A stretch of 19,601 bases of DNA. Origin: Bdellovibrionales bacterium CG10_big_fil_rev_8_21_14_0_10_45_34. Its GTDB lineage: Bacteria > Bdellovibrionota > Bdellovibrionia > Bdellovibrionales > 1-14-0-10-45-34. Every line of letters starts with the position of its first letter. The stretch's first letter is position 1. The notes beneath the pieces were generated by a model. That model saw only the letters and a program-made list of their open reading frames with translations. It searched no databases and was not told the DNA's origin. The stretch spans positions 55,485 to 75,085 of the forward strand of contig PEZS01000003.1 in assembly GCA_002778785.1 (NCBI GenBank), read 5' to 3'. Shown here piece by piece: positions 7,490 through 18,359 of this stretch. The translations under genes were made by a program, and so were the position numbers.

Positions 7490-7560
7490 TAGGAAGTCAT
7501 TTTCTTTTGGACCCGAGTCTGAAATGTGGCAAAGAAACTTCAGAAAAAGCGAGCGCAAAT

Positions 7561-8139
7561 ATGCATTGGACACAACTTTTAGGAGTCATTGAGACCTTAG
7601 TCTTAGTAACTTTGCTAGGTCTTTCGGTCTGGTCAGTAACCGTAATTATAGATCGCAGACGGTTTCTTAAGGCTTATCTCTCGGATGAGAGTGTGGCCGA
7701 ACTGAGAGGCGTCATTAAGGGTGGAAAGCCGGGAGCGTCAGCCCTTCTCAAATCAAAAGCTATTTGCGCTGCTTTAGAAGCGGCAAAAGACTCAAGAATG
7801 AGCGACACGAAGAAAATGCGACTCATTAAAGAACAACTTGTCGAGTTTAAGTTAGAAACAGAAAAGGGATTGGCTGTTTTGGCCACCTTGGGGGCGAATG
7901 CACCTTTTATTGGACTTTTTGGTACGGTCTTGGGAGTGGTTCGAGCCTTTTCGAAGTTAGGCGAGGCGAGTTCAAGTGGAACCGCCTCAGTTATGACAGC
8001 AATTTCGATGGCTTTGATCGCCACCGCAGCGGGTTTGTTCGTCGCGATCCCTGCGGTTGCTGCGTACAACGTTTTCGCAAAGAAGATTCGTGTAGCGCTT
8101 CTTCAAATTCAAACTTCTTTAGAAGCAGGAATCGATTAA
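7561..8139 (+). CDS. exbB: ExbB/TolQ/MotA-family proton channel subunit
   Basis: This is the inner-membrane motor subunit that, with ExbD, uses the proton gradient to energise TonB. Three membrane segments are visible: about 5-28, about 103-127 (LATLGANAPFIGLFGTVLG, the family signature) and about 137-160 (AISMALIATAAGLFVAIPAV, the MotA/TolQ/ExbB signature). A cytoplasmic helical region with many charges lies between the first and second. From the ATG at 7561 the protein is 192 aa. A TTG at 7507 in frame would add 18 residues and has AGGAAG 10 nt upstream, so the start is uncertain. I prefer the ATG because it puts the first membrane helix directly at the N-terminus, as in TolQ. It is the first gene of the exbB-exbD-tonB-receptor-lipoprotein unit. 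Confidence 0.92.
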   Translation: MHWTQLLGVIETLVLVTLLGLSVWSVTVIIDRRRFLKAYLSDESVAELRGVIKGGKPGASALLKSKAICAALEAAKDSRMSDTKKMRLIKEQLVEFKLETEKGLAVLATLGANAPFIGLFGTVLGVVRAFSKLGEASSSGTASVMTAISMALIATAAGLFVAIPAVAAYNVFAKKIRVALLQIQTSLEAGID

Positions 8140-8157
8140 AGTTTTTTCGAGGTGACT

Positions 8158-8574
8158 ATGGCATCCCAAGCAGAAGATTTCGATCAGGATGAAAACCTAC
8201 TCTCGCAGATCAATGTGACACCTTTTGTAGATGTCGTTCTCGTGTTGCTGGTGATTTTTATGGTTACCGCTCCCATGTTGGCCAGAGAGGCGCTTGAGCT
8301 CAGTTTGCCAAAGGCCGGTTCAGGACAAGAAAAGCCTACTCAAACACTGGCCGTGGCTATCAATAGAAACGGACAGATTCTCGTAGATGGTTTAGCTGTT
8401 TCAGAATCAGAACTTGCTGGCGAATTGAGCGCTCGTGCTCAGGGTATTGCTGGCGTCGTCGTCAGCGCCGACAAACAGATAGACTATGGCCTCTTTGTTA
8501 AGGTTGTTGATTTGATCAAGTCTTCTGGGATCGAAAAATTGGCAATTGAAGTATTGCGCGAGAATAGAGAGTAG
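8158..8574 (+). CDS. exbD: ExbD/TolR-family proton channel subunit
   Basis: ExbD is the partner of ExbB in the proton-driven TonB motor. It has a short cytoplasmic N-terminus, one membrane helix (about 21-40) and a periplasmic ExbD/TolR domain to residue 138. The family's protonatable Asp lies in NVTPFVDVVLVLLVIF as residue 25, the same number as in E. coli ExbD when the ATG at 8158 is used. That ATG is preceded by GAGGTGA, a near-perfect anti-Shine-Dalgarno match at normal spacing, whereas the GTG at 8152 has none, so 8158 is chosen. It begins 18 bp after exbB. Confidence 0.94.
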   Translation: MASQAEDFDQDENLLSQINVTPFVDVVLVLLVIFMVTAPMLAREALELSLPKAGSGQEKPTQTLAVAINRNGQILVDGLAVSESELAGELSARAQGIAGVVVSADKQIDYGLFVKVVDLIKSSGIEKLAIEVLRENRE

Positions 8575-8670
8575 GGGCGTTTTTTTGGTGTTCGCTGGCA
8601 ATTTCACACGAGACTACTTAGGGGTTGTTGCCAACTCATCTTCTTGCTTTTCCACACTAGTTTGTAAGAA

Positions 8671-9360
8671 ATGGCAACAGCCTTATGGAAAAGCGACGAG
8701 GTCAGTTTGAAATCCCAAAGTTTGTCTCGAGCCTCATTTGGACTTGTTCAGCGTCCTCTGAGTTTGTCGTTAATAGTCCATTTCGGTTTCGCATTGTTTG
8801 TAGGTGCATTGATCAATTCTCAGTTCCGTTCGTCTAAAAGCCAAGTTGAACTAACGGTCTTCTATCCCGAGCAAGCCATAAAGTCGCCGGTGATCGAGCA
8901 AATTCAGGCGAGAAGTGCTCCGAAAGTTGACCCTAAAAAGTCAGTCTATGGGTTAAGTCGAAAGGCCATCACAGAAGATCAAAGTGACGTCACGACAAAG
9001 CAGGGCAATACTCTTGCTAAACAGAGAGACGAAAAAGTTTTAAATGAAGACGATCCTGATTCGCTTCCGATCCCAACGGACGAATATCTCTTGACCCAGA
9101 TGCCTGTCGTGAAAAGAGAAGTAAGAGCAAGATATCCCGATGAAGCTCGACGAAACAGGGTAGAGGGAGCCGTGGTGTTAGATGTGCTCATCGATCGTGC
9201 CGGACTTGTGCGAGAGGCGAGAGTGCTCGAAGGACTTGGTTATGGAACCGAAGCCGCAGCCCTTGAGGCGATAAGGCAGTTTGAGTTTTCACCCGGAATG
9301 ATGGGTGAAAAATCTGTCGCTGTTCGGATCAGGTATCTTTACCGGTTTGTATTGGAGTAA
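8671..9360 (+). CDS. tonB: TonB energy-transducing protein
   Basis: TonB spans the periplasm and transmits motor force to outer-membrane receptors. The 229-aa product has a cytoplasmic N-terminus of about 28 residues, one membrane helix (about 30-50) containing the SxxxH motif that TonB uses to engage ExbB (S33, H37), a spacer of about 90 residues, and a C-terminal TonB domain (about 148-229) with YPDEARRNRVEGAVVLDVLI and FEFSPG. The spacer lacks the usual Pro-Glu/Pro-Lys repeats and is Lys/Gln/Asp-rich instead. A 96-bp gap separates it from exbD, and only 3 bp separate it from the receptor. The start has no strong Shine-Dalgarno sequence. Confidence 0.93.
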   Translation: MATALWKSDEVSLKSQSLSRASFGLVQRPLSLSLIVHFGFALFVGALINSQFRSSKSQVELTVFYPEQAIKSPVIEQIQARSAPKVDPKKSVYGLSRKAITEDQSDVTTKQGNTLAKQRDEKVLNEDDPDSLPIPTDEYLLTQMPVVKREVRARYPDEARRNRVEGAVVLDVLIDRAGLVREARVLEGLGYGTEAAALEAIRQFEFSPGMMGEKSVAVRIRYLYRFVLE

Positions 9361-9363
9361 GAC

Positions 9364-11694
9364 ATGAAATTTTTTGATCTGCCGAAATGGCTCCTTTGTT
9401 TCTCTTTTTCGGCTCGCCTGTCTTTTCTCGCTAGCCTGAGCGTTTTGGTGGTGATGGACTTTTCTCAGGCTCTCGCTGAGACTCTCGAAGGTGATGAAGT
9501 GCCCGCAGAAGTCACTTTTCAGTTTTCTGGTTATTTGAAAGAAAAGGGCACCAAAAAGCCCTTAGAGTCACAGAATATTTATTTGTTACCGAAAAAGCTT
9601 AAGGCCACAACGGATAAGAGCGGTTTTTTTGTGATTCCGAATGCACCTTCAGGAAAGTTTGAGATCGTGGTTCGGGTTGCTAATTTTGAATCTTACAATG
9701 AGAGTTTTGATCTCAATCAAGATTCAGAAGTTACTATTTATATCGAAAAGTCCCAGTACATTTCTTTTGAATCAACTGTGGTCGGGCAGGCCGATCGAGA
9801 TCGAACGAGTAGAAGTTTAAAAACTGAGGAGTTTCTTAAGTTGCCGGGTGGCGGAGACGGAGACCCAGTAAAGGCGATACAAAACTTACCCGGCGTTAAT
9901 AGGCAAGTAGGATTTAGCTCGCAGATAGTTATTCAGGGCTCTGAACCAAAAGACACCTCATATGTTTTAGAGGAGCATGAGATACCTTTGGTTTTTCACT
10001 TCGGCGGGTTGACGTCGGTTTTTTTTCCAGAAGCCGTGAGCGAGGTTGAATATCTTTCGGCTGGCTATGAAGCCAATTACGGCAGAGCAATGGGTGGTCT
10101 TGTAGGCTTAAAGGTAAGAAAGCCGCGCTCAGACCGATTTCACGCACTTGCTTATGTTGATACGGCTAAATCGGGCTTGCTATTAGAAACTCCCTTAGAT
10201 GATAGATCTTCTATTATGGTTGGAGGGCGATACAGCTACATCGGAGAAGTAGTTAGAGCCGTTCTTGAAGATTCAGAAGGCGATCTTGATCTCACGGTCG
10301 CGCCCACTTTCGGTGATGTGATGGCGGTTTACGATCGGGACTTCTACGATGGGTGGAGTCTACATTGGGTGAATCTTTACTCTTTTGATCGACTGGCCTT
10401 TTTACTCGCCCAGCCAAGTGAGATGGACCCTACCATCAGAGGAGATTTCGAGAATCAAACGAGCTTTTATCGGCTAATACCTAAGGTGACCAAAGAGTGG
10501 GGCGAGGCTCGATCGAATTTGTCTTTAGGTTACGGGAAGGACTGGATTTTCTTTAAAAGCTCTAGCAATTATTTTTCTTTGGGTTCGACCAATTTTACAG
10601 CTCGAGGCGATCACAGGTGGAAGCCATCTTCGAGTTGGACATCTACAATGGGATTCGACAATCAGTACGTTTGGGCTTCCGTGAATGTGAGTTTGCCCAC
10701 GAACACATCACGCGGCGGGGTTTCGTCTCCACTGGCATCGGAAATGATAAACAGAGACATAACACTTAAGTCAAATCTGCTTGGCCTTTATTGGAAGAAC
10801 AATTTTTCACTCTCAGATCAGTTTGAAATATCTCCGCAGGTGCGTTTCGATCGCTACTCAGTGACTAAAGAAAACCTTTTTTCGCCAAGATTCACAGCAG
10901 CCTATAGCTTGGCGAGTGCCTCGAAAATTGTACTTGCCAGCGGTATTTACTATCAGCCCCCAGAACCTCAAGAAACAGACACGGGATTTGGTAACCCAGA
11001 TCTAAAATCTCCGAATGCAAAACATGTTGCCATCTACTATGAAACAGATTTTAGAAAAGGAGCTACGGATGGTTGGGAGCTCAGAGCGGGGCCCTATTAT
11101 CGACTCTTCAACGATTCGGTTGCAAACTCAAGTAGCTATGTTGTGAGAGATGGCGCTCTCACCCCCGAGCGCTATAACAATTCCGGGGGAGGAAGTGCCT
11201 ATGGGCTGGAGACACTCCTGCAGCTTTCGGGTGACCCTTTTTCGGGTTGGCTTTCTTACACTGTTTCGCGAAGTGAGCGATTTGACAATGGCGGGCCAGT
11301 CTTTCCAGCGAGATTTGACCAGACTCACAATTTGAATCTTCTTGCGTCCTATAATCTCGGAAGAAAGTGGCTCCTATCGGCACGATTTAGATATGTTACG
11401 GGTAATCCTGTGACTCCCATCGCCGGATCGGTGTTTGACTCTGATAATGATGTTTACACGCCGATACGCGGTCCATTTTATTCAGAAAGATTGTCGGAGT
11501 TTTATCAGTTCGATTTAAGAGTTGATAAGAAGTGGATTTACGACACTTGGATACTTTCTGCGTATCTGGATATTCAAAACGCCCTCAATGCCAAAAATCA
11601 AGAGGCCATTGTGTATTCGTATGACTACAGTCAGAAGACAGCAGTAACCGGCTTGCCGGTTTTTCCAACCTTAGGAGTTCGCGGTGAATTTTAG
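9364..11694 (+). CDS. TonB-dependent outer-membrane receptor with CarboxypepD_reg-like N-terminal domain
   Basis: This 776-aa protein is a gated outer-membrane beta-barrel energised by TonB. It has a signal peptide with a likely cut after ALA (38), then a carboxypeptidase-regulatory-like beta-sandwich (about 50-130). The plug domain (about 145-250) contains LPGVNRQVGFSSQIVIQGSEP and HFGGLTSVFFPEAV, a pattern I associate with myxobacterial receptors. The barrel ends in an aromatic residue (...GEF), as is typical for BAM substrates. I could not identify a TonB box with confidence. The ATG uses GGAG within the end of tonB, so the two are translationally linked. Next to its own ExbB, ExbD and TonB it forms a self-sufficient uptake or export unit. 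The substrate is unknown. Confidence 0.94.
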   Translation: MKFFDLPKWLLCFSFSARLSFLASLSVLVVMDFSQALAETLEGDEVPAEVTFQFSGYLKEKGTKKPLESQNIYLLPKKLKATTDKSGFFVIPNAPSGKFEIVVRVANFESYNESFDLNQDSEVTIYIEKSQYISFESTVVGQADRDRTSRSLKTEEFLKLPGGGDGDPVKAIQNLPGVNRQVGFSSQIVIQGSEPKDTSYVLEEHEIPLVFHFGGLTSVFFPEAVSEVEYLSAGYEANYGRAMGGLVGLKVRKPRSDRFHALAYVDTAKSGLLLETPLDDRSSIMVGGRYSYIGEVVRAVLEDSEGDLDLTVAPTFGDVMAVYDRDFYDGWSLHWVNLYSFDRLAFLLAQPSEMDPTIRGDFENQTSFYRLIPKVTKEWGEARSNLSLGYGKDWIFFKSSSNYFSLGSTNFTARGDHRWKPSSSWTSTMGFDNQYVWASVNVSLPTNTSRGGVSSPLASEMINRDITLKSNLLGLYWKNNFSLSDQFEISPQVRFDRYSVTKENLFSPRFTAAYSLASASKIVLASGIYYQPPEPQETDTGFGNPDLKSPNAKHVAIYYETDFRKGATDGWELRAGPYYRLFNDSVANSSSYVVRDGALTPERYNNSGGGSAYGLETLLQLSGDPFSGWLSYTVSRSERFDNGGPVFPARFDQTHNLNLLASYNLGRKWLLSARFRYVTGNPVTPIAGSVFDSDNDVYTPIRGPFYSERLSEFYQFDLRVDKKWIYDTWILSAYLDIQNALNAKNQEAIVYSYDYSQKTAVTGLPVFPTLGVRGEF

Positions 11695-12621: not shown

Positions 12622-13773
12622 ATGCAGACTAGTAACTTACGGTCGGTAGTATTAGTGGGAGGCGGCCTTAGTTCTTCTATTTTAGCTTGGTACTTTAGGT
12701 CTACCCACCCATTAGTTGAAATCACAATCTTTGACGAAAAATCAGAAGCCGAGCTATCGAAGAAAACTTGGTCCTTTCATAGGTCTGATATAGGTCAGGA
12801 GTATGAAAGAATTCGACCACTAGTAAATTTTAGTTGGCCTCAGTATGAAGTAAGGTTCAGAAGTTATTCAAAAATATATGATTCAGAATACTCAACTCTG
12901 AAACCTTCTCACTTAAAAAAACGTCTTGAAGAGGTCGGAGTTAATTTCTACATCAACTGTAAAGTCCAAATAGTAGATGCGCAGACGGTTAGCCATGCGA
13001 ATGGCGTTGTGAAGGCGGATCTTGTGATAGATGGCCGGGGCCAGAGCCCTTATTCGAAAGGGACATGTGGCTACCAGAAGTTTCATGGCTTAGAGATTCA
13101 AACAGTCTCTGATCACAAAATTGCCGTTCCAATCCTTATGGATGCCACGGTCAATCAGATTGATGGTTATCGCTTTTTTTACGTCTTGCCTTTGTCAAAA
13201 GATCGCCTACTTGTCGAAGACACGCGTTACTCAGATACAACAGAGCTGAACGTGTCAGATTATAAAAATGAAATTGCTAGATACTGCGCAGATGTCCTCA
13301 AGATTCAAATCAAAGAGGTGACATCTGAAGAAACAGGAGTGCTGCCAATACCTTTCGCGCCTCGCCTTGCGAAGACTTTCCTCTTTCCGACAATCGGTAC
13401 AGCGGGCCAATATTGCCACCCGGTGACGAGCTACACACTGGCAGACAGTGTTAGAGTTTCAAAAGAAATTTGTCAGCTTGAGAATATTAACACAACTTCT
13501 GTTATGGACTTGCTCAATCAATATCGAGAATCACGAGCGAAAGTGAATTCATTTTATTTTAAACTGAATCGACTTTTGTTTCTTGCGGGTAAGCCAACAG
13601 AGAGATGGCGAATATTTGAGCACTTTTATGCAATGCCCGCCTCGACTGTTGCGCGGTTCTACGCTGGAGAGACAACCGCTCTCGATAAAATGAGAATTCT
13701 CAGCGGCAAACCCCCGGTGCCTATTTTAGATGCAATTCGAGTGCTTCGAAAATCAGAAATGGAGTTTACATGA
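12622..13773 (+). CDS. crtY: Lycopene beta-cyclase CrtY
   Basis: CrtY converts lycopene to beta-carotene via gamma-carotene at the inner membrane. The 383-aa length and the whole sequence match proteobacterial CrtY. It has an N-terminal FAD-binding glycine-rich motif VGGGLSSS (12-19), TWSFHRSD, VIDGRG, PILMDATV, the LPLSKDRLLVEDTRY block that contains the catalytic-site Glu, an LPI motif, a CHPVTSYTL segment equivalent to FHPTTGYSL, and the C-terminal ARFYAGETTALDKMRILSGK block. The third Gly of GxGxxG is Ser here. A GGTGGA Shine-Dalgarno sequence precedes the ATG. The stop overlaps the crtI start (ATGA), so it heads a translationally coupled operon. Confidence 0.96.
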   Translation: MQTSNLRSVVLVGGGLSSSILAWYFRSTHPLVEITIFDEKSEAELSKKTWSFHRSDIGQEYERIRPLVNFSWPQYEVRFRSYSKIYDSEYSTLKPSHLKKRLEEVGVNFYINCKVQIVDAQTVSHANGVVKADLVIDGRGQSPYSKGTCGYQKFHGLEIQTVSDHKIAVPILMDATVNQIDGYRFFYVLPLSKDRLLVEDTRYSDTTELNVSDYKNEIARYCADVLKIQIKEVTSEETGVLPIPFAPRLAKTFLFPTIGTAGQYCHPVTSYTLADSVRVSKEICQLENINTTSVMDLLNQYRESRAKVNSFYFKLNRLLFLAGKPTERWRIFEHFYAMPASTVARFYAGETTALDKMRILSGKPPVPILDAIRVLRKSEMEFT

Positions 13774-15287
13774 GTTCAAATCGAGACAGTTCAAAAGTTA
13801 AAAAAACTGCGGCTGTTATCGGCAGTGGATTTGGTGGGCTTGCCGTAGCCATTCGGCTTCAAAGCCAAGGATTTCAGGTGAAAATCTTCGAAAAGAGAGA
13901 AATGCCCGGAGGCAGAGCATATGTCTATAGAGAAGGCGGCTTTACCTTTGATGCCGGGCCAACGGTTATTACTGCACCTGAAACATTGTCGGAGCTGTTT
14001 GAAATCAACAATAAAAAAATTGAAAACTATGTAGAGCTTATGCCCGTGGATCCTTTCTACAAACTTTGCTGGGAAGACGGAAAGACCTTCAATTACAACG
14101 GAGACCTTGAGCAAACGCTTGCAGAAATACGTCGGTTTAATCCAGCGGATATCGAGGGTTACAAGAAATTTTTGGCTTACTCGAAAGAGGTTTACCAGCA
14201 GGGATATGTGAAGTTGGCTGACAAGGCCTTTCTCACTGTAGCTAGTATGCTCAAGACGGCTCCTCAATTGCTTCGGCTAAGAGCAGATCGCAGCGTTTAC
14301 TCAGCTGTAAGTAGGTTCATTGAGAATGAACATCTGAGGCAAGCGTTTAGCTTCCACAGCCTTTTGGTTGGCGGAAACCCATTTGGCACTTCAAGTATTT
14401 ACACCCTTATTCACTATCTCGAGAGAAATGGGGGAGTTTTCTTCCCGAGGGGCGGTACCGGAGCTTTGGTGCAGGCTCTCGCAAAACTCTTTAAAGAGAT
14501 AGGTGGAACCATTGAACTCAATGCAGAAGTGAGCAAAATAACAACTTCGCGGGGTACAGTGACAGGCGTTCTCAAACAGAATGGCGAGAGTGAAAAATTC
14601 GATTTAGTAGTTTCTAACGGTGATGTCGTTCACACCTACCGAAAACTGCTGAGTGACGAAAATCTGGTAGAAAAGACCGCCTCTCGCGTTGGCCGGATGC
14701 GCCATAGCATGGGGCTTTTCCTGATTTATTTTGGCACTCGTCGCGAGTTTCCTCAAGTGGCTCATCACAATGTGCTTTTTGGTCCAAGGTACAAAGAGCT
14801 TTTGAAGGACATATTTAGCAGAGGGCATCTCCCCGATGACTTTTCCCTTTATCTTCACGCACCAACGCGCACTGATAAGTCGCTGGCGCCTCCGGGACAC
14901 GAGTGTTTTTACGTTCTTTCGCCGGTTTCTCATTTGGGTAAGTTAAATGTTGATTGGAGCGTGGAAGGGCCCAGATATGCCGATAAAATTTTGAAATACT
15001 TAGACGAGAGATACTTGCCCGGGCTTTTGGATTCCCTGGTATATAAAAAGATTTTTACGCCAACAGATTTCAAACAAGAACTTAATGCGCATTGGGGTTC
15101 TGCATTTTCTCTAGAACCGATTCTCACTCAGAGCGCCTACTTTAGAACTCACAACAAAGACTCCAAGCTGAAGGGCTTGTACTTTGTTGGTGCGGGAACA
15201 CATCCTGGAGCAGGTGTTCCAGGAGTAGTCGCTTCGGCAAAGGCGACGGCGAGAGTCGTTGCGGCCGACTTTGGAGTGCCTTTATGA
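13770..15287 (+). CDS. crtI: Phytoene desaturase CrtI
   Basis: This FAD-dependent membrane-associated bacterial desaturase/isomerase takes phytoene to lycopene (usually four steps). The 505-aa length is normal. It has the FAD-binding G-x-G-x-x-G (G18, G20, G23) followed by PGGRAYVYREGGFTFDAGPT, a substrate-side region with HSLLVGGNPFGTSSIYTLIHYLE, FPRGGTGALVQAL, and the C-terminal signature GLYFVGAGTHPGAGVPGV. The 4-bp ATGA overlaps at both ends join it to crtY and crtB. Desaturation step number (neurosporene or lycopene end) cannot be read from sequence, but a partner CrtY fits lycopene. Confidence 0.96.
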   Translation: MSSNRDSSKVKKTAAVIGSGFGGLAVAIRLQSQGFQVKIFEKREMPGGRAYVYREGGFTFDAGPTVITAPETLSELFEINNKKIENYVELMPVDPFYKLCWEDGKTFNYNGDLEQTLAEIRRFNPADIEGYKKFLAYSKEVYQQGYVKLADKAFLTVASMLKTAPQLLRLRADRSVYSAVSRFIENEHLRQAFSFHSLLVGGNPFGTSSIYTLIHYLERNGGVFFPRGGTGALVQALAKLFKEIGGTIELNAEVSKITTSRGTVTGVLKQNGESEKFDLVVSNGDVVHTYRKLLSDENLVEKTASRVGRMRHSMGLFLIYFGTRREFPQVAHHNVLFGPRYKELLKDIFSRGHLPDDFSLYLHAPTRTDKSLAPPGHECFYVLSPVSHLGKLNVDWSVEGPRYADKILKYLDERYLPGLLDSLVYKKIFTPTDFKQELNAHWGSAFSLEPILTQSAYFRTHNKDSKLKGLYFVGAGTHPGAGVPGVVASAKATARVVAADFGVPL

Positions 15288-16153
15288 GCGGCCAACTGAA
15301 ATCCACTATACGTAATGGATCCAAAAGTTTCTTTCTGGCGAGTTTGTTTTTTTCAAATGAAATTCGACTGGCCTGCTGGAAGCTTTATCAATGGTGTCGA
15401 CACTGCGACGACAAGATCGATAAAGGCGGCACACTTGAAGATATAACGACCTTAAGAGAACAGACAAAGCGGGGAATCTTGGCAAGTGAAGACGACGAAG
15501 TCTTTCGTCACTTAGGTAGCCTTGTGAGAGAATACAAAATACCTGAAAAGTATCCTTTTGAATTACTTGAAGGTCTTCAGAAAGATGCTTCTGGCGAGAG
15601 GTATCACACCATCTCAGAACTCGAAGTTTACTCCTATCACGTAGCAGGAGTTGTGGGGTTAATGATGTCATACATAATGGGAGTAAAATCGCGCGAAGCT
15701 AGTGATCAGGCAGTGAGCATGGGGAATGCTATGCAGTTGACAAATATTGCGCGAGATGTGCGCGAAGATTATTTGCTCGGCCGGATATATTTGCCACTGA
15801 ACTGGCTAAAAGAAAACGGTGTAGATACCGAATCCATGCTTGAAAAGAAAAATTTGCCCGCCTTGTTCGAAGTCGTTGAGCGCCTTCTCGCTCATGCTGA
15901 TGGACTTTATCAAAAGGGGTACGCGGGGCTCAAGTATTTGCCCTTAAGAGCAGCCTTTGCCGTGTCAATTGCTGGATCCATTTATTCTGCAATAGGTAAG
16001 AAGGTTTTGAGATTAGGGCCTAAGGCACTTGAAGGCAGGGTGAGCGTGGGCCTGCCCGAAAAGATTTTATGGATAATTCATGGTCTTCTCAGAGTCGTTT
16101 CACAAATGCCGCAAAGAATTTCTGAAAGGTTTTTTCATGTCTACAATTCTTAA
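15284..16153 (+). CDS. crtB: Phytoene synthase CrtB
   Basis: CrtB condenses two geranylgeranyl diphosphates to 15-cis-phytoene, the first committed carotenoid step. The 289-aa length is usual. Both Mg2+/diphosphate-binding aspartate motifs are present: WCRHCDDKID (37-46) and QLTNIARDVREDYLLGRIYL (151-170). The YSYHVAGVVG block (116-125) and the N-terminal SKSFFLAS pocket segment are also seen. The start overlaps crtI (ATGA) and the end overlaps the next gene by 17 bp. The GGPP synthase (crtE) that would feed it is not in this window. Confidence 0.96.
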   Translation: MSGQLKSTIRNGSKSFFLASLFFSNEIRLACWKLYQWCRHCDDKIDKGGTLEDITTLREQTKRGILASEDDEVFRHLGSLVREYKIPEKYPFELLEGLQKDASGERYHTISELEVYSYHVAGVVGLMMSYIMGVKSREASDQAVSMGNAMQLTNIARDVREDYLLGRIYLPLNWLKENGVDTESMLEKKNLPALFEVVERLLAHADGLYQKGYAGLKYLPLRAAFAVSIAGSIYSAIGKKVLRLGPKALEGRVSVGLPEKILWIIHGLLRVVSQMPQRISERFFHVYNS

Positions 16154-16730
16154 AGATTCGTTTCTATACGATGCGCTAGTTTATGTTTCAAGAATCAAGC
16201 AATTCAAACCAATAGATGTGGCTGTTTATATCGTGTGGGTGGGGCTCATGTATGGCTTGTTCGCCGTTGTTTCAGCGTTTCTGTATGTGGGATACAGTAA
16301 CGGAGTGATATATCCTGATTATGTTTGGAACATTCCGCTTGGGACATTCATTTTTTCGACGGCAATTGCTATAGACACAATTGGTCATCGAACTATCTAC
16401 AAAGAAGTGCTCAAAAAAGGCGAGGCACTCATTCACCACATTACAATAGCAAGCGGAATAACCAGCGTAATGGCACTCTGTCTAGCCTATGGGCATAGGG
16501 AGTTTATGATGATGCCTGCCGCGGTATTGATTTTTCTGAGTATTCTCTACAGCGTTATTGACGAAGCTATGCATTGGCACAGATACCTCACATCTAACTC
16601 TGACCGAGTTGAAATGTGGAGTCATTTCTCTATTCTTTTGGGTCATCTCATTATGATTGGCAGCTGGTGGATTTGGTTTTCAGAAGGATATTTAGGTGTG
16701 AGTGAGACTTTGGCGGTACTTGCCAAATGA
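16137..16730 (+). CDS. Unknown five-helix membrane protein with duplicated D-x3-H/E-x3-H units; candidate carotenoid-modifying enzyme
   Basis: The frame is open upstream to 16080. I chose the ATG at 16137 because GAAAGG precedes it and the overlap with crtB falls to 17 bp, giving 197 aa. Five membrane helices are likely (about 28-50, 65-82, 100-118, 124-141, 163-182), with the basic N-terminus inside. Residues 79-107 and 141-169 align as an internal repeat: I-D-x3-H, then 11-12 residues, then E-x3-H and a hydrophobic stretch to Gly. This gives D80/H84/E96/H100 and D142/H146/E159/H163, plus H101, E143, H148 and H170. The topology puts all of these at the cytoplasmic face, which resembles a di-metal site. 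It lacks the HxxHH boxes of CrtZ, CrtW or CrtR. Its place between crtB and a glycosyltransferase suggests hydroxylation or ketolation of the carotenoid. The enzyme role is inference. Confidence 0.75.
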   Translation: MSTILKDSFLYDALVYVSRIKQFKPIDVAVYIVWVGLMYGLFAVVSAFLYVGYSNGVIYPDYVWNIPLGTFIFSTAIAIDTIGHRTIYKEVLKKGEALIHHITIASGITSVMALCLAYGHREFMMMPAAVLIFLSILYSVIDEAMHWHRYLTSNSDRVEMWSHFSILLGHLIMIGSWWIWFSEGYLGVSETLAVLAK

Positions 16731-17926
16731 TTTTCGACTACCTCTTGGGTTTTTTGGGATTACTTGTTCTCGTTTTACGATTGAAGCCAAAAAAGAAAGA
16801 ATCCTACAATCAGTTGTTGTCAGACTTCCCGTTAGTTTCAATAGTGGTTCCCTGTCGCAATGAACAGGCGAACATCGAACCTCTGCTGAAGAGTTTGGTA
16901 CAAATCGAGTACCCTCAGTTTGAAGTTTTGGTCGTCGACGACGAATCAACCGATAGAACTTGGAACATAGCAGAGGCCATCAGAGATGCAGAACGAGTTC
17001 ATGGAAGAGATAACATTGTGCTTTTGAAGGCGCCCTCGAAGCCCGCTGAGTATGTTGGCAAGAACTGGGCTTGCGCAATCGGGGCTGAGCACGCACGCGG
17101 AAGCTGGATTCTGTTCACGGATGCGGACACGCGGCATGAAAGGCAGTCCCTGAAAGAAGCTTTGCAATTTGCATACGCCAAGGATCTTTCACTTGTTTCA
17201 GCAATACCCTATCACCTTTGCAGCAAGGGCTTTGAAAGGTTCTTGGGTTTGTTTCACTTGCTGCCCCTCATTGCTTCATGTGCTTTTAGAGGCGAATACT
17301 CCGCTTTGAAAAGAGTAAGTCGCAAATCTCGAATATATGCCATCGGCCAGTATCTATTGTTTCGCAAGAAAACATACGAAGCCATCGGCGGGCACACAAG
17401 AATTCACGCTAGCCTCTCCGAAGACATTGATCTAGCAACTTTGGTACTTTTAGAGGGGAAAAAAGAAAACAGCAGTGAGGGTGGGGCTAAAGAAGAGTGC
17501 AAAGAGATAGACAAACAAGAATACAATAAAGAGTACAAAGAAAAGTGCAAAGAAGAATACAAAGAAAAATACAAATACGGGGTTTTTACACAAACACCTC
17601 TTTACAAAGTGCAGATGTACGGCTCCTTCAAGGAGTTTTTTAAAGGGTGGCAGCGTCTTATTCGAATTGGCTCAAATAGGGTGAGCGCTATGGCTTTCGT
17701 TGAAATTGCATTAATTTTTTCGTTGTTTACCCAGATGACTTGGTTAAGTTTGATCGGAGTTGTACTTCTGTTGCGGATTCAAAGGAGCCACGGAGACTTT
17801 TCCTTTATAGGGGCTGTTTTAGCTCCGCTAAGTCTGTTGCTTTTTCTGACGATCAGCATTTTGGGGTTTATTGAGAATTTTCAAAGAAAGGGCATTGTCT
17901 GGCATGACCGCATTTACAATACCTAA
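16727..17926 (+). CDS. Family 2 glycosyltransferase, CrtQ/CruC-like carotenoid glycosyltransferase
   Basis: This 399-aa membrane-bound GT2 enzyme probably adds a sugar to a hydroxylated carotenoid. It has an N-terminal hydrophobic segment (about 3-18), then the GT-A fold with VVPCRNEQANI (40-50), VVDDESTD (69-76), the GKNWACAIGAEHARG segment shared with CrtQ-type enzymes (111-125), the DxD site TDAD (131-134) and the ED acceptor-site pair (E232, D233). After a segment ending QMYGSFKEFFKGWQRL (296-311) there are C-terminal membrane helices (about 319-376). Between the ED motif and YGVF sits an unusual Lys/Glu/Tyr/Cys-rich insert of about 35 residues (about 247-283), made mostly of a 12-bp tandem repeat. 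It overlaps the preceding gene by 4 bp. Lipid or exopolysaccharide acceptors are alternatives, but the operon favours carotenoid. Confidence 0.87.
   Translation: MIFDYLLGFLGLLVLVLRLKPKKKESYNQLLSDFPLVSIVVPCRNEQANIEPLLKSLVQIEYPQFEVLVVDDESTDRTWNIAEAIRDAERVHGRDNIVLLKAPSKPAEYVGKNWACAIGAEHARGSWILFTDADTRHERQSLKEALQFAYAKDLSLVSAIPYHLCSKGFERFLGLFHLLPLIASCAFRGEYSALKRVSRKSRIYAIGQYLLFRKKTYEAIGGHTRIHASLSEDIDLATLVLLEGKKENSSEGGAKEECKEIDKQEYNKEYKEKCKEEYKEKYKYGVFTQTPLYKVQMYGSFKEFFKGWQRLIRIGSNRVSAMAFVEIALIFSLFTQMTWLSLIGVVLLLRIQRSHGDFSFIGAVLAPLSLLLFLTISILGFIENFQRKGIVWHDRIYNT
17489..17578 (+). repeat. 12-bp tandem repeat, about 7.5 copies, inside the glycosyltransferase gene
   Basis: Consecutive 12-bp units start at 17489, 17501, 17513, 17525, 17537, 17549 and 17561, with a final half unit at 17573-17578. 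The consensus is AAAGAARARTAC. The units read K-E-E-C, K-E-I-D, K-Q-E-Y, N-K-E-Y, K-E-K-C, K-E-E-Y, K-E-K-Y, K-Y (residues 255-284). A unit is four codons, so gain or loss of copies keeps the frame. Confidence 0.93.
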
Positions 17927-18359
17927 AGGCTGGTTTTTGGTAGCAACCGGTTTTGTGCTACTGCTAGCATCGCAAACGGCTTTTTCGGACACTATAGAAG
18001 TAAGGTTCTATGGCTTTCGATCTTCTGAAGGGTTTATAGCATTTAACGTTTTTGAAGCTGAGAAGTCAGATAGCTTTCCGGATAAGTCCACAGAGGCAGT
18101 GAAAAGCTATTATCTGCCGCTCGATGGAAAGACGGAAATCGTGCAAACCATCGAGATTGCTTCGGGTGATTATGCCATCTCAGCTATGCACGACGAAGAT
18201 GGTGATCGCAAGTTTCGAACCGGTTTATTTGGTATTCCAAGGGAAGGGTATGGATTCTCTAAAGATGCTAAAGTTTATTTTGGACCCCCCAGCTTTGATC
18301 GAGCAAAATTCAATACCCAAGGAATTTCAAAGATCGATATCAAAATCCGATATTTTTAG
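17904..18359 (+). CDS. DUF2141 exported protein at the end of the carotenoid operon
   Basis: The product is 151 aa from the ATG at 17904. It has a signal peptide (hydrophobic core about 10-26, likely cut after AFS at 28), followed by a DUF2141 domain ending with the family's characteristic block: ISAMHDEDGDRKFRTGLFGI, EGYGFSKDAKVYFGPPSFD and a beta-rich end. D-E-D-G-D resembles an EF-hand-type Ca2+ loop. DUF2141 genes recur next to carotenoid glycosyltransferases and desaturases in several bacterial groups (family knowledge), so a periplasmic role in pigment placement or transfer is plausible but unproven. An in-frame TTG at 17871 would lengthen the protein. I prefer the ATG because it gives a better signal peptide. 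It overlaps the glycosyltransferase by 23 bp. Confidence 0.88.
   Translation: MTAFTIPKGWFLVATGFVLLLASQTAFSDTIEVRFYGFRSSEGFIAFNVFEAEKSDSFPDKSTEAVKSYYLPLDGKTEIVQTIEIASGDYAISAMHDEDGDRKFRTGLFGIPREGYGFSKDAKVYFGPPSFDRAKFNTQGISKIDIKIRYF

Follow-up and report, generated by a model that had tools for sequence, protein, structure and literature searches.

Across the Bdellovibrionota, a small membrane protein of carotenoid gene clusters, here called X, takes the place of CrtZ, the usual carotene hydroxylase, in that the two nearly exclude each other. We propose that X may be a metal-dependent hydroxylase of the beta-ring that has replaced CrtZ without recognisable relationship to it, a reading to which we give about even weight and in which the activity, the metal and the ring position are proposed from sequence. 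The gene was analysed in a stretch of 19,601 nucleotides (the window) of a Bdellovibrionales genome. A first-pass annotation of this DNA had read X as a new type of membrane di-metal oxygenase acting on the carotenoid and made by internal duplication. The conservation of the residues concerned, the linkage to crt genes, the lack of a family match and a genome free of CrtZ and CrtW are in line with the oxygenase part of that reading, whereas the duplication is not supported. The near-exclusion of CrtZ, which is the strongest functional clue, was absent from it.

Gene X and its neighbourhood

The cluster in the window runs in the order crtY, crtI, crtB, X, GT2 and DUF2141 (Table 1), and the reading frame of X shares 17 bases with the 3' end of crtB and 4 bases with the start of GT2. 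The open reading frame, the coordinates and all residue numbers given for X in the first-pass annotation were correct, as was the location of the gene between crtB and the GT2 gene; the start at 16137 is favoured over an upstream ATG at 16080, with homologues starting near 16137. A low-complexity stretch rich in Lys, Glu and Tyr (KEYKEKCKEEYKEKYKYG) was seen within the GT2 protein of the window, at about residues 253-287. By sequence, positions 7507-11694, which lie just 5' of the crt genes and share their strand, read as ExbB/ExbD/TonB-like genes and, after them, a large protein that resembles an outer-membrane receptor.

Table 1. Features of the carotenoid cluster and codons of conserved residues of X in the window
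Feature	Position	Strand	Details
crtY, lycopene beta-cyclase, makes beta-rings	12622..13773	+	TIGR01789 286 bits, above cut-off; PF05834 E 9e-69
crtI, phytoene desaturase	13770..15287	+	TIGR02734 672 bits, above cut-off
crtB, phytoene synthase	15284..16153	+	PF00494 E 4e-61; CrtB models best, yet under cut-offs
X, 197-aa five-helix membrane protein	16137..16730	+	subject of this analysis
D80-H84 codons, first [DE]x3H pair, end of TM2	16374..16388	+	both 53/53; helix 61-84
E96-H100 codons, second pair, start of TM3	16422..16436	+	53/53, 52/53; helix 89-116
D142, E143-H146 codons, third pair, end of TM4	16560..16574	+	53/53, 53/53, 52/53; helix 121-153
E159-H163 codons, fourth pair, start of TM5	16611..16625	+	both 53/53; helix 157-182
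H170 codon, fifth invariant His, TM5, seven residues past H163	16644..16646	+	53/53
GT2 glycosyltransferase	16727..17926	+	PF00535 E 5e-25; HpnB and CruG models under cut-off
DUF2141 protein	17919..18359	+	PF09912 E 3e-27

Relatives of X were found in 47 of 368 Bdellovibrionota genomes, with three further matches from the phylum (E 0.006 to 0.009) left out. When GTDB genomes were scanned with the alignment of X, 45 loci were obtained, mainly from the Bdellovibrionota; the genome scan with the single X sequence found none. The loci from outside the phylum belong to single MAGs labelled Myxococcota, Polyangiaceae, Sericytochromatia and Kariarchaeota. A second archaeal copy is located on a 271-kb contig of a genome related to the Kariarchaeota MAG, and the archaeal copies are therefore probably not stray contigs; one of them (L084) directly follows crtI, and the other (L187:9747-10385, minus strand) adjoins an alpha/beta-hydrolase-like ORF, at a distance from crt genes. 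The phage and plasmid collections contained no X, and in the literature we found no paper that gives the gene a function.

Linkage of X to crtB, crtI and crtY is near absolute. The gene immediately 5' of X, in the same orientation, is crtB in all of the 45 loci except three, namely L047, L071 and the archaeal L084 (42 of 45). Because several contigs are short, the counts of the other neighbours are lower bounds: a GGPP synthase gene in at least 35 of the 45 loci, crtY in at least 32, GT2 in at least 12, an FA_hydroxylase-family gene in at least 7 and DUF2141 in at least 5. A strong CrtY match (E below about 1e-20) is present in 45 of the 47 X genomes, compared with 25 of the 321 other genomes of the phylum. 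In locus L047, with the order GGPP synthase, crtI, crtB, CrtYcd-like cyclase, ABC pair, X and GT2, X pairs with a CrtYcd-type cyclase; it thus goes with beta-rings and not with one cyclase. Locus L071, over 9 kb, contains no crt gene.

The neighbouring glycosyltransferase had also been taken as an argument for a hydroxylated product. Its adjacency to X holds in the window, but a general linkage does not, and the argument is weakened because GT2 is near only 12 of the 45 loci; the GT2 of the window is a candidate glycosylator of the hydroxylated product and an optional partner of X. Among genomes that lack X, G021 has GT2 together with CrtW and CrtZ, and G041 has a partial GT2 beside CrtZ. In the GT2 tree, the GT2s of these two genomes group with the X-linked ones and are separated (100/100) from the CruG-type GT2s that belong to rhodopsin loci.

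Near-exclusion between X and CrtZ

A true CrtZ, defined as a match to the CrtZ alignment with E below 1e-30, is present in 29 genomes, and the two genes were compared across the 70 crtY-positive Bdellovibrionota genomes. Of the 45 that carry X, 1 has CrtZ, compared with 10 of the 25 that lack X (Fisher p = 7e-5, the genomes being phylogenetically non-independent; p = 0.002 when counted by genus), and 15 crtY genomes carry neither. In G028 and G317, which lack X, CrtZ is found within the crt cluster itself. The sole genome with both genes is G352, in which X (L148:1200-1800, minus strand) is broken by an in-frame stop and a frameshift. This may be decay or an assembly error, the latter being possible because other drafts (G044, G278 and L085) carry frameshifted copies too. 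As would be expected of a beta-ring hydroxylase, X is coded with beta-carotene genes and, apart from G352, is absent from the crtY genomes that have CrtZ.

No FA_hydroxylase-family protein, and therefore no CrtZ, is encoded by the window genome, which is one of twelve X genomes without any protein of this family and which also lacks CrtW; its two FA_desaturase-family proteins look, by sequence, like AlkB-type alkane hydroxylases. A clear CrtW was not found in 45 of the 47 X genomes. In G119 and G321, CrtW occurs together with an intact X, without CrtZ and near the rhodopsin genes of these genomes, and the role of CrtZ, rather than that of CrtW, is therefore indicated for X. In G352, CrtW has CrtZ beside it.

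Conserved residues and predicted structure

Conservation was scored over an alignment of 53 non-redundant homologues. The eight residues that had been put forward as a two-metal site (D80, H84, E96, H100, D142, H146, E159 and H163) are conserved, six of them without exception and H100 and H146 in all homologues but one each. Among the residues that had been added to this set, E143 and H170 are likewise invariant, whereas H101 (40/53) and H148 (16/53) are variable. The core-residue observation is thus stronger than the first-pass annotation had stated. A near-invariant Asp or Glu stands at position -4 of four of the five near-invariant His (p = 4.5e-5, letters shuffled among the 42 near-invariant columns), and Y138, W147, R149, D156 and G169 are also near-invariant. 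As read from their sequences, the two archaeal copies retain all ten of the Asp, Glu and His residues, with the neighbouring R85 and R157 changed.

The AlphaFold2 model of X, made with a 16-member alignment, has a pLDDT of 91.5 and a pTM of 0.86, and its long helices span residues 25-54, 61-84, 89-116, 121-153 and 157-182, the ends of neighbouring helices carrying the four [DE]x3H pairs. Averaged over the sequences, the number of Lys and Arg is 3.4 for the N-terminus, 0.2, 3.1, 0.25 and 2.9 for loops 1 to 4, respectively, and 0.7 for the C-terminus. By the positive-inside rule, this distribution turns the helix ends with the pairs towards the cytoplasm, in support of the cytoplasmic-face placement that had been predicted for both units. 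Judged by sequence position and predicted helices, conserved carboxylates and His from four helices lie at one membrane face, and the helix ends suggest that these residues would cluster in space.

The two units can be aligned by eye near the register that had been described (I-D-x3-H, then E-x3-H, then Gly), but their origin by internal duplication has no significant support from sequence: hhalign of the two halves gave P = 0.35, and a profile Smith-Waterman comparison scored 0.5 sd over shuffles, 56 of the 200 shuffles being equally good.

No match of weight was obtained when Pfam, NCBIfam and PDB sequences were searched with X, as a single sequence or as the 16-member alignment, and no family of the three collections matches X; an Mpo1-like match, with two members and a best E of 0.33, was regarded as a chance hit. 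Foldseek of the model against PDB returned nothing at E <= 0.001. Among the VIA matches listed for X, a PhoU-like protein ranked best (Z 10.0 over 164 aligned residues, rmsd 3.8), ahead of TSPO and TMEM120 (both about 9), and none of the three reaches the level of 13 given for helical bundles. The control, a CrtZ model (pLDDT 85.9) of the same phylum, had the Scs7p hydroxylase domain first (Z 7.3, 130 residues), followed by an unrelated match with Z 3.3.

Discussion

In the mechanism that we propose, X would be a five-helix inner-membrane enzyme. Its metal site, probably of two irons, would lie at the cytoplasmic face and consist of the four Asp/Glu-x3-His pairs and possibly H170. Acting downstream of CrtB, CrtI and lycopene cyclase, the enzyme would hydroxylate beta-carotene, or a keto derivative, on the beta-ring, which is the job of CrtZ, and in the window genome and a minority of others GT2 would then glycosylate the new hydroxyl. 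What we infer here is the metal, the chemistry with oxygen, the position on the ring and the glycosylation. CrtZ has metal-ligand-type residues at the cytoplasmic face, as X has by prediction, and it is likewise a small membrane protein of beta-carotene clusters, with the slot after crtB and the same GT2 partner in genomes that lack X. The motifs differ, the boxes of CrtZ being HxxxxH, HxxHH, HxxxxHRR and HRxHH, whereas X has four [DE]x3H pairs, five invariant His and five long helices. Counting against a hydroxylase, the FA_hydroxylase-family gene in 7 of the 45 X loci could be the hydroxylase there, and the L071 and archaeal L187 copies lie away from crt genes.

A metal-dependent carotenoid oxygenase with a product other than that of CrtZ, formed for example by CrtG-like 2-hydroxylation, CrtW-like 4-ketolation or a further ring desaturation, is in our judgement clearly less probable, though still a serious alternative. 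The conserved residues and the linkage would suit any ring oxygenase, a clear CrtW is missing from 45 of the 47 X genomes, and the FA_hydroxylase-family gene of some X clusters, including that of G030, could be the 3-hydroxylase. However, the near-exclusion is against CrtZ, and the CrtW beside intact X in G119 and G321 means that X need not supply the ketone. CrtR and CrtW (PF00487) resemble X as membrane enzymes that oxygenate the beta-ring, the activity proposed here, but X has neither the His boxes nor a profile match of PF00487, no match to NF045688 or NF045690, and an hhalign value of 1% to CrtW. CrtG, the carotenoid 2,2'-hydroxylase, is another beta-ring hydroxylase unlike CrtZ and was first known from a few carotenoid clusters only (PMC3111180); X, however, has no NCBIfam match, and CrtG usually acts on the products of CrtZ or CrtW (PMC3111180), of which CrtZ is absent here.

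It is unlikely that X is a non-enzyme, that is, a membrane partner or scaffold of CrtB, CrtI and CrtY, or a carotenoid- or metal-binding protein. Its position directly 3' of crtB, often overlapping, and the lack of an enzyme family match would fit such a role, but ten invariant Asp, Glu and His residues at the ends of membrane helices would be unusual for a scaffold. Moreover, CrtZ clusters function without X, many carotenoid clusters need no such partner, and the archaeal L187 copy has no adjoining crt genes.

More doubtful still is a reading of X as a strongly diverged relative within the fatty acid hydroxylase superfamily, to which CrtZ belongs, with some His-box positions turned into Asp or Glu. 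CrtZ did give the highest hhalign value of the seven profiles compared with X, and in the alignment DTIGHRT of X falls opposite the CrtZ box with THRR at its end; the value of 3.8 to 5.3%, however, is no better than that of CrtZ against CrtW (4.6%), in a test that is weak, as CrtZ reaches only 32% against its own Pfam relative. PF04116, which the true CrtZ of the phylum matches, was not matched by the single X protein at E <= 1 or by 16 members at E <= 10. The HxxxxH, HxxHH and HxxHH boxes are absent from the 53-sequence alignment, in which the conserved His are H84, H100, H146, H163 and H170, and the lack of His boxes of the CrtZ, CrtR and CrtW type that the first-pass annotation had noticed thus extends to the homologues. 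Scs7p, listed for the CrtZ model, was not among the matches listed for X, a list that is not exhaustive, so that its absence is not decisive.

A carotenoid hydratase of the CruF type, feeding GT2, or a retinal-forming dioxygenase is highly improbable: GT2 is distantly similar to CruG and rhodopsins occur in some X genomes, but CruF (PF04240) and Blh (PF15461), although they too are carotenoid-pathway membrane proteins without FA-hydroxylase His boxes, are separate genes in X genomes with no family match to X (profile probability 0.3% and 0.1%, respectively), and the CruG-type GT2s form another clade. The retinal-forming role was rejected, as the window genome has no rhodopsin and a separate Blh is found where rhodopsin exists.

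Beyond the hydroxylase that we propose, a wider view, in which we place somewhat less than even confidence, is that X is the founding member of a superfamily of membrane metal oxygenases that is new. This would be marked by the four [DE]x3H pairs and by a five-helix fold unlike those of the fatty acid hydroxylases and desaturases, and it would have taken over carotenoid hydroxylation in predatory bacteria, with distant copies in the Kariarchaeota group. Ferritin-like and heme-oxygenase-like diiron oxidases use helix pairs of carboxylate and His ligands, and a D-x3-H pair within a single helix is among the known diiron patterns; X shares with them the carboxylate and His pairs on helices, but theirs are soluble folds, to which X has no sequence or structure match.

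The known enzyme types for oxygenation of the beta-ring are few and unrelated, comprising CrtZ, CrtR, a P450, CrtG, CrtW and CrtO (PMC3111180). If our proposal is true, X would widen the known membrane metal oxygenases by a type that combines carboxylates with His instead of using His boxes, provide a new tool for xanthophyll production and fill the last pigment-pathway step of Bdellovibrio. Genome G030, a single contig of 3,782,950 bases that we take to be like the chromosome of B. bacteriovorus HD100, carries X after crtB at 1,662,067, adjoining an ABC transporter pair, an FA_hydroxylase-family gene (Pfam) and crtY, and the presence of X there would make its function testable in a model organism. 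B. bacteriovorus HD100 is yellow and makes carotenoids, and strain Tiberius is white and lacks bd1723-1725 and bd1730 (PMC3539863).

Other features of the carotenoid loci

Directly 5' of X, a fused crtI-crtB frame of about 810-830 codons was seen in L053:7506-10010 and L061:7575-10010, with similar fusions in L055, L063, L065, L067 and L070. A pair of ABC-2 transporter genes, in most cases together with an FA_hydroxylase-family gene, occurs near crt clusters with X or with CrtZ, examples being L183:7612-10023 (G030), L137, L145, L164, L165 and L047; pigment export or lipid modification is possibly its function.

Adjacent to rhodopsin genes, a salinixanthin-type set of CrtW, CruF (PF04240), an acyltransferase (PF01553) and a CruG-like GT2 is present in L169, L170, L167 and L177 (genomes G321, G119, G116 and G352, respectively), which suggests a xanthorhodopsin with a ketocarotenoid antenna in the Bdellovibrionota. 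A compact cluster of GGPP synthase, crtI, crtB, a CrtYcd-type cyclase, CrtZ and rhodopsin, found in L179, L180 and L181 (G150, G215 and G240), would by its gene content be a zeaxanthin-making rhodopsin cassette. The idea that rhodopsin-CrtZ genomes without CrtY use carotenoids of the prey was rejected, as a CrtYcd-type cyclase is present. In L045 and L046, MerR-type regulator, photolyase-like, lipocalin-like and DUF2141 genes, named by eye, surround the crt cluster, and these surroundings resemble the light-induced carotenoid regions of other bacteria.
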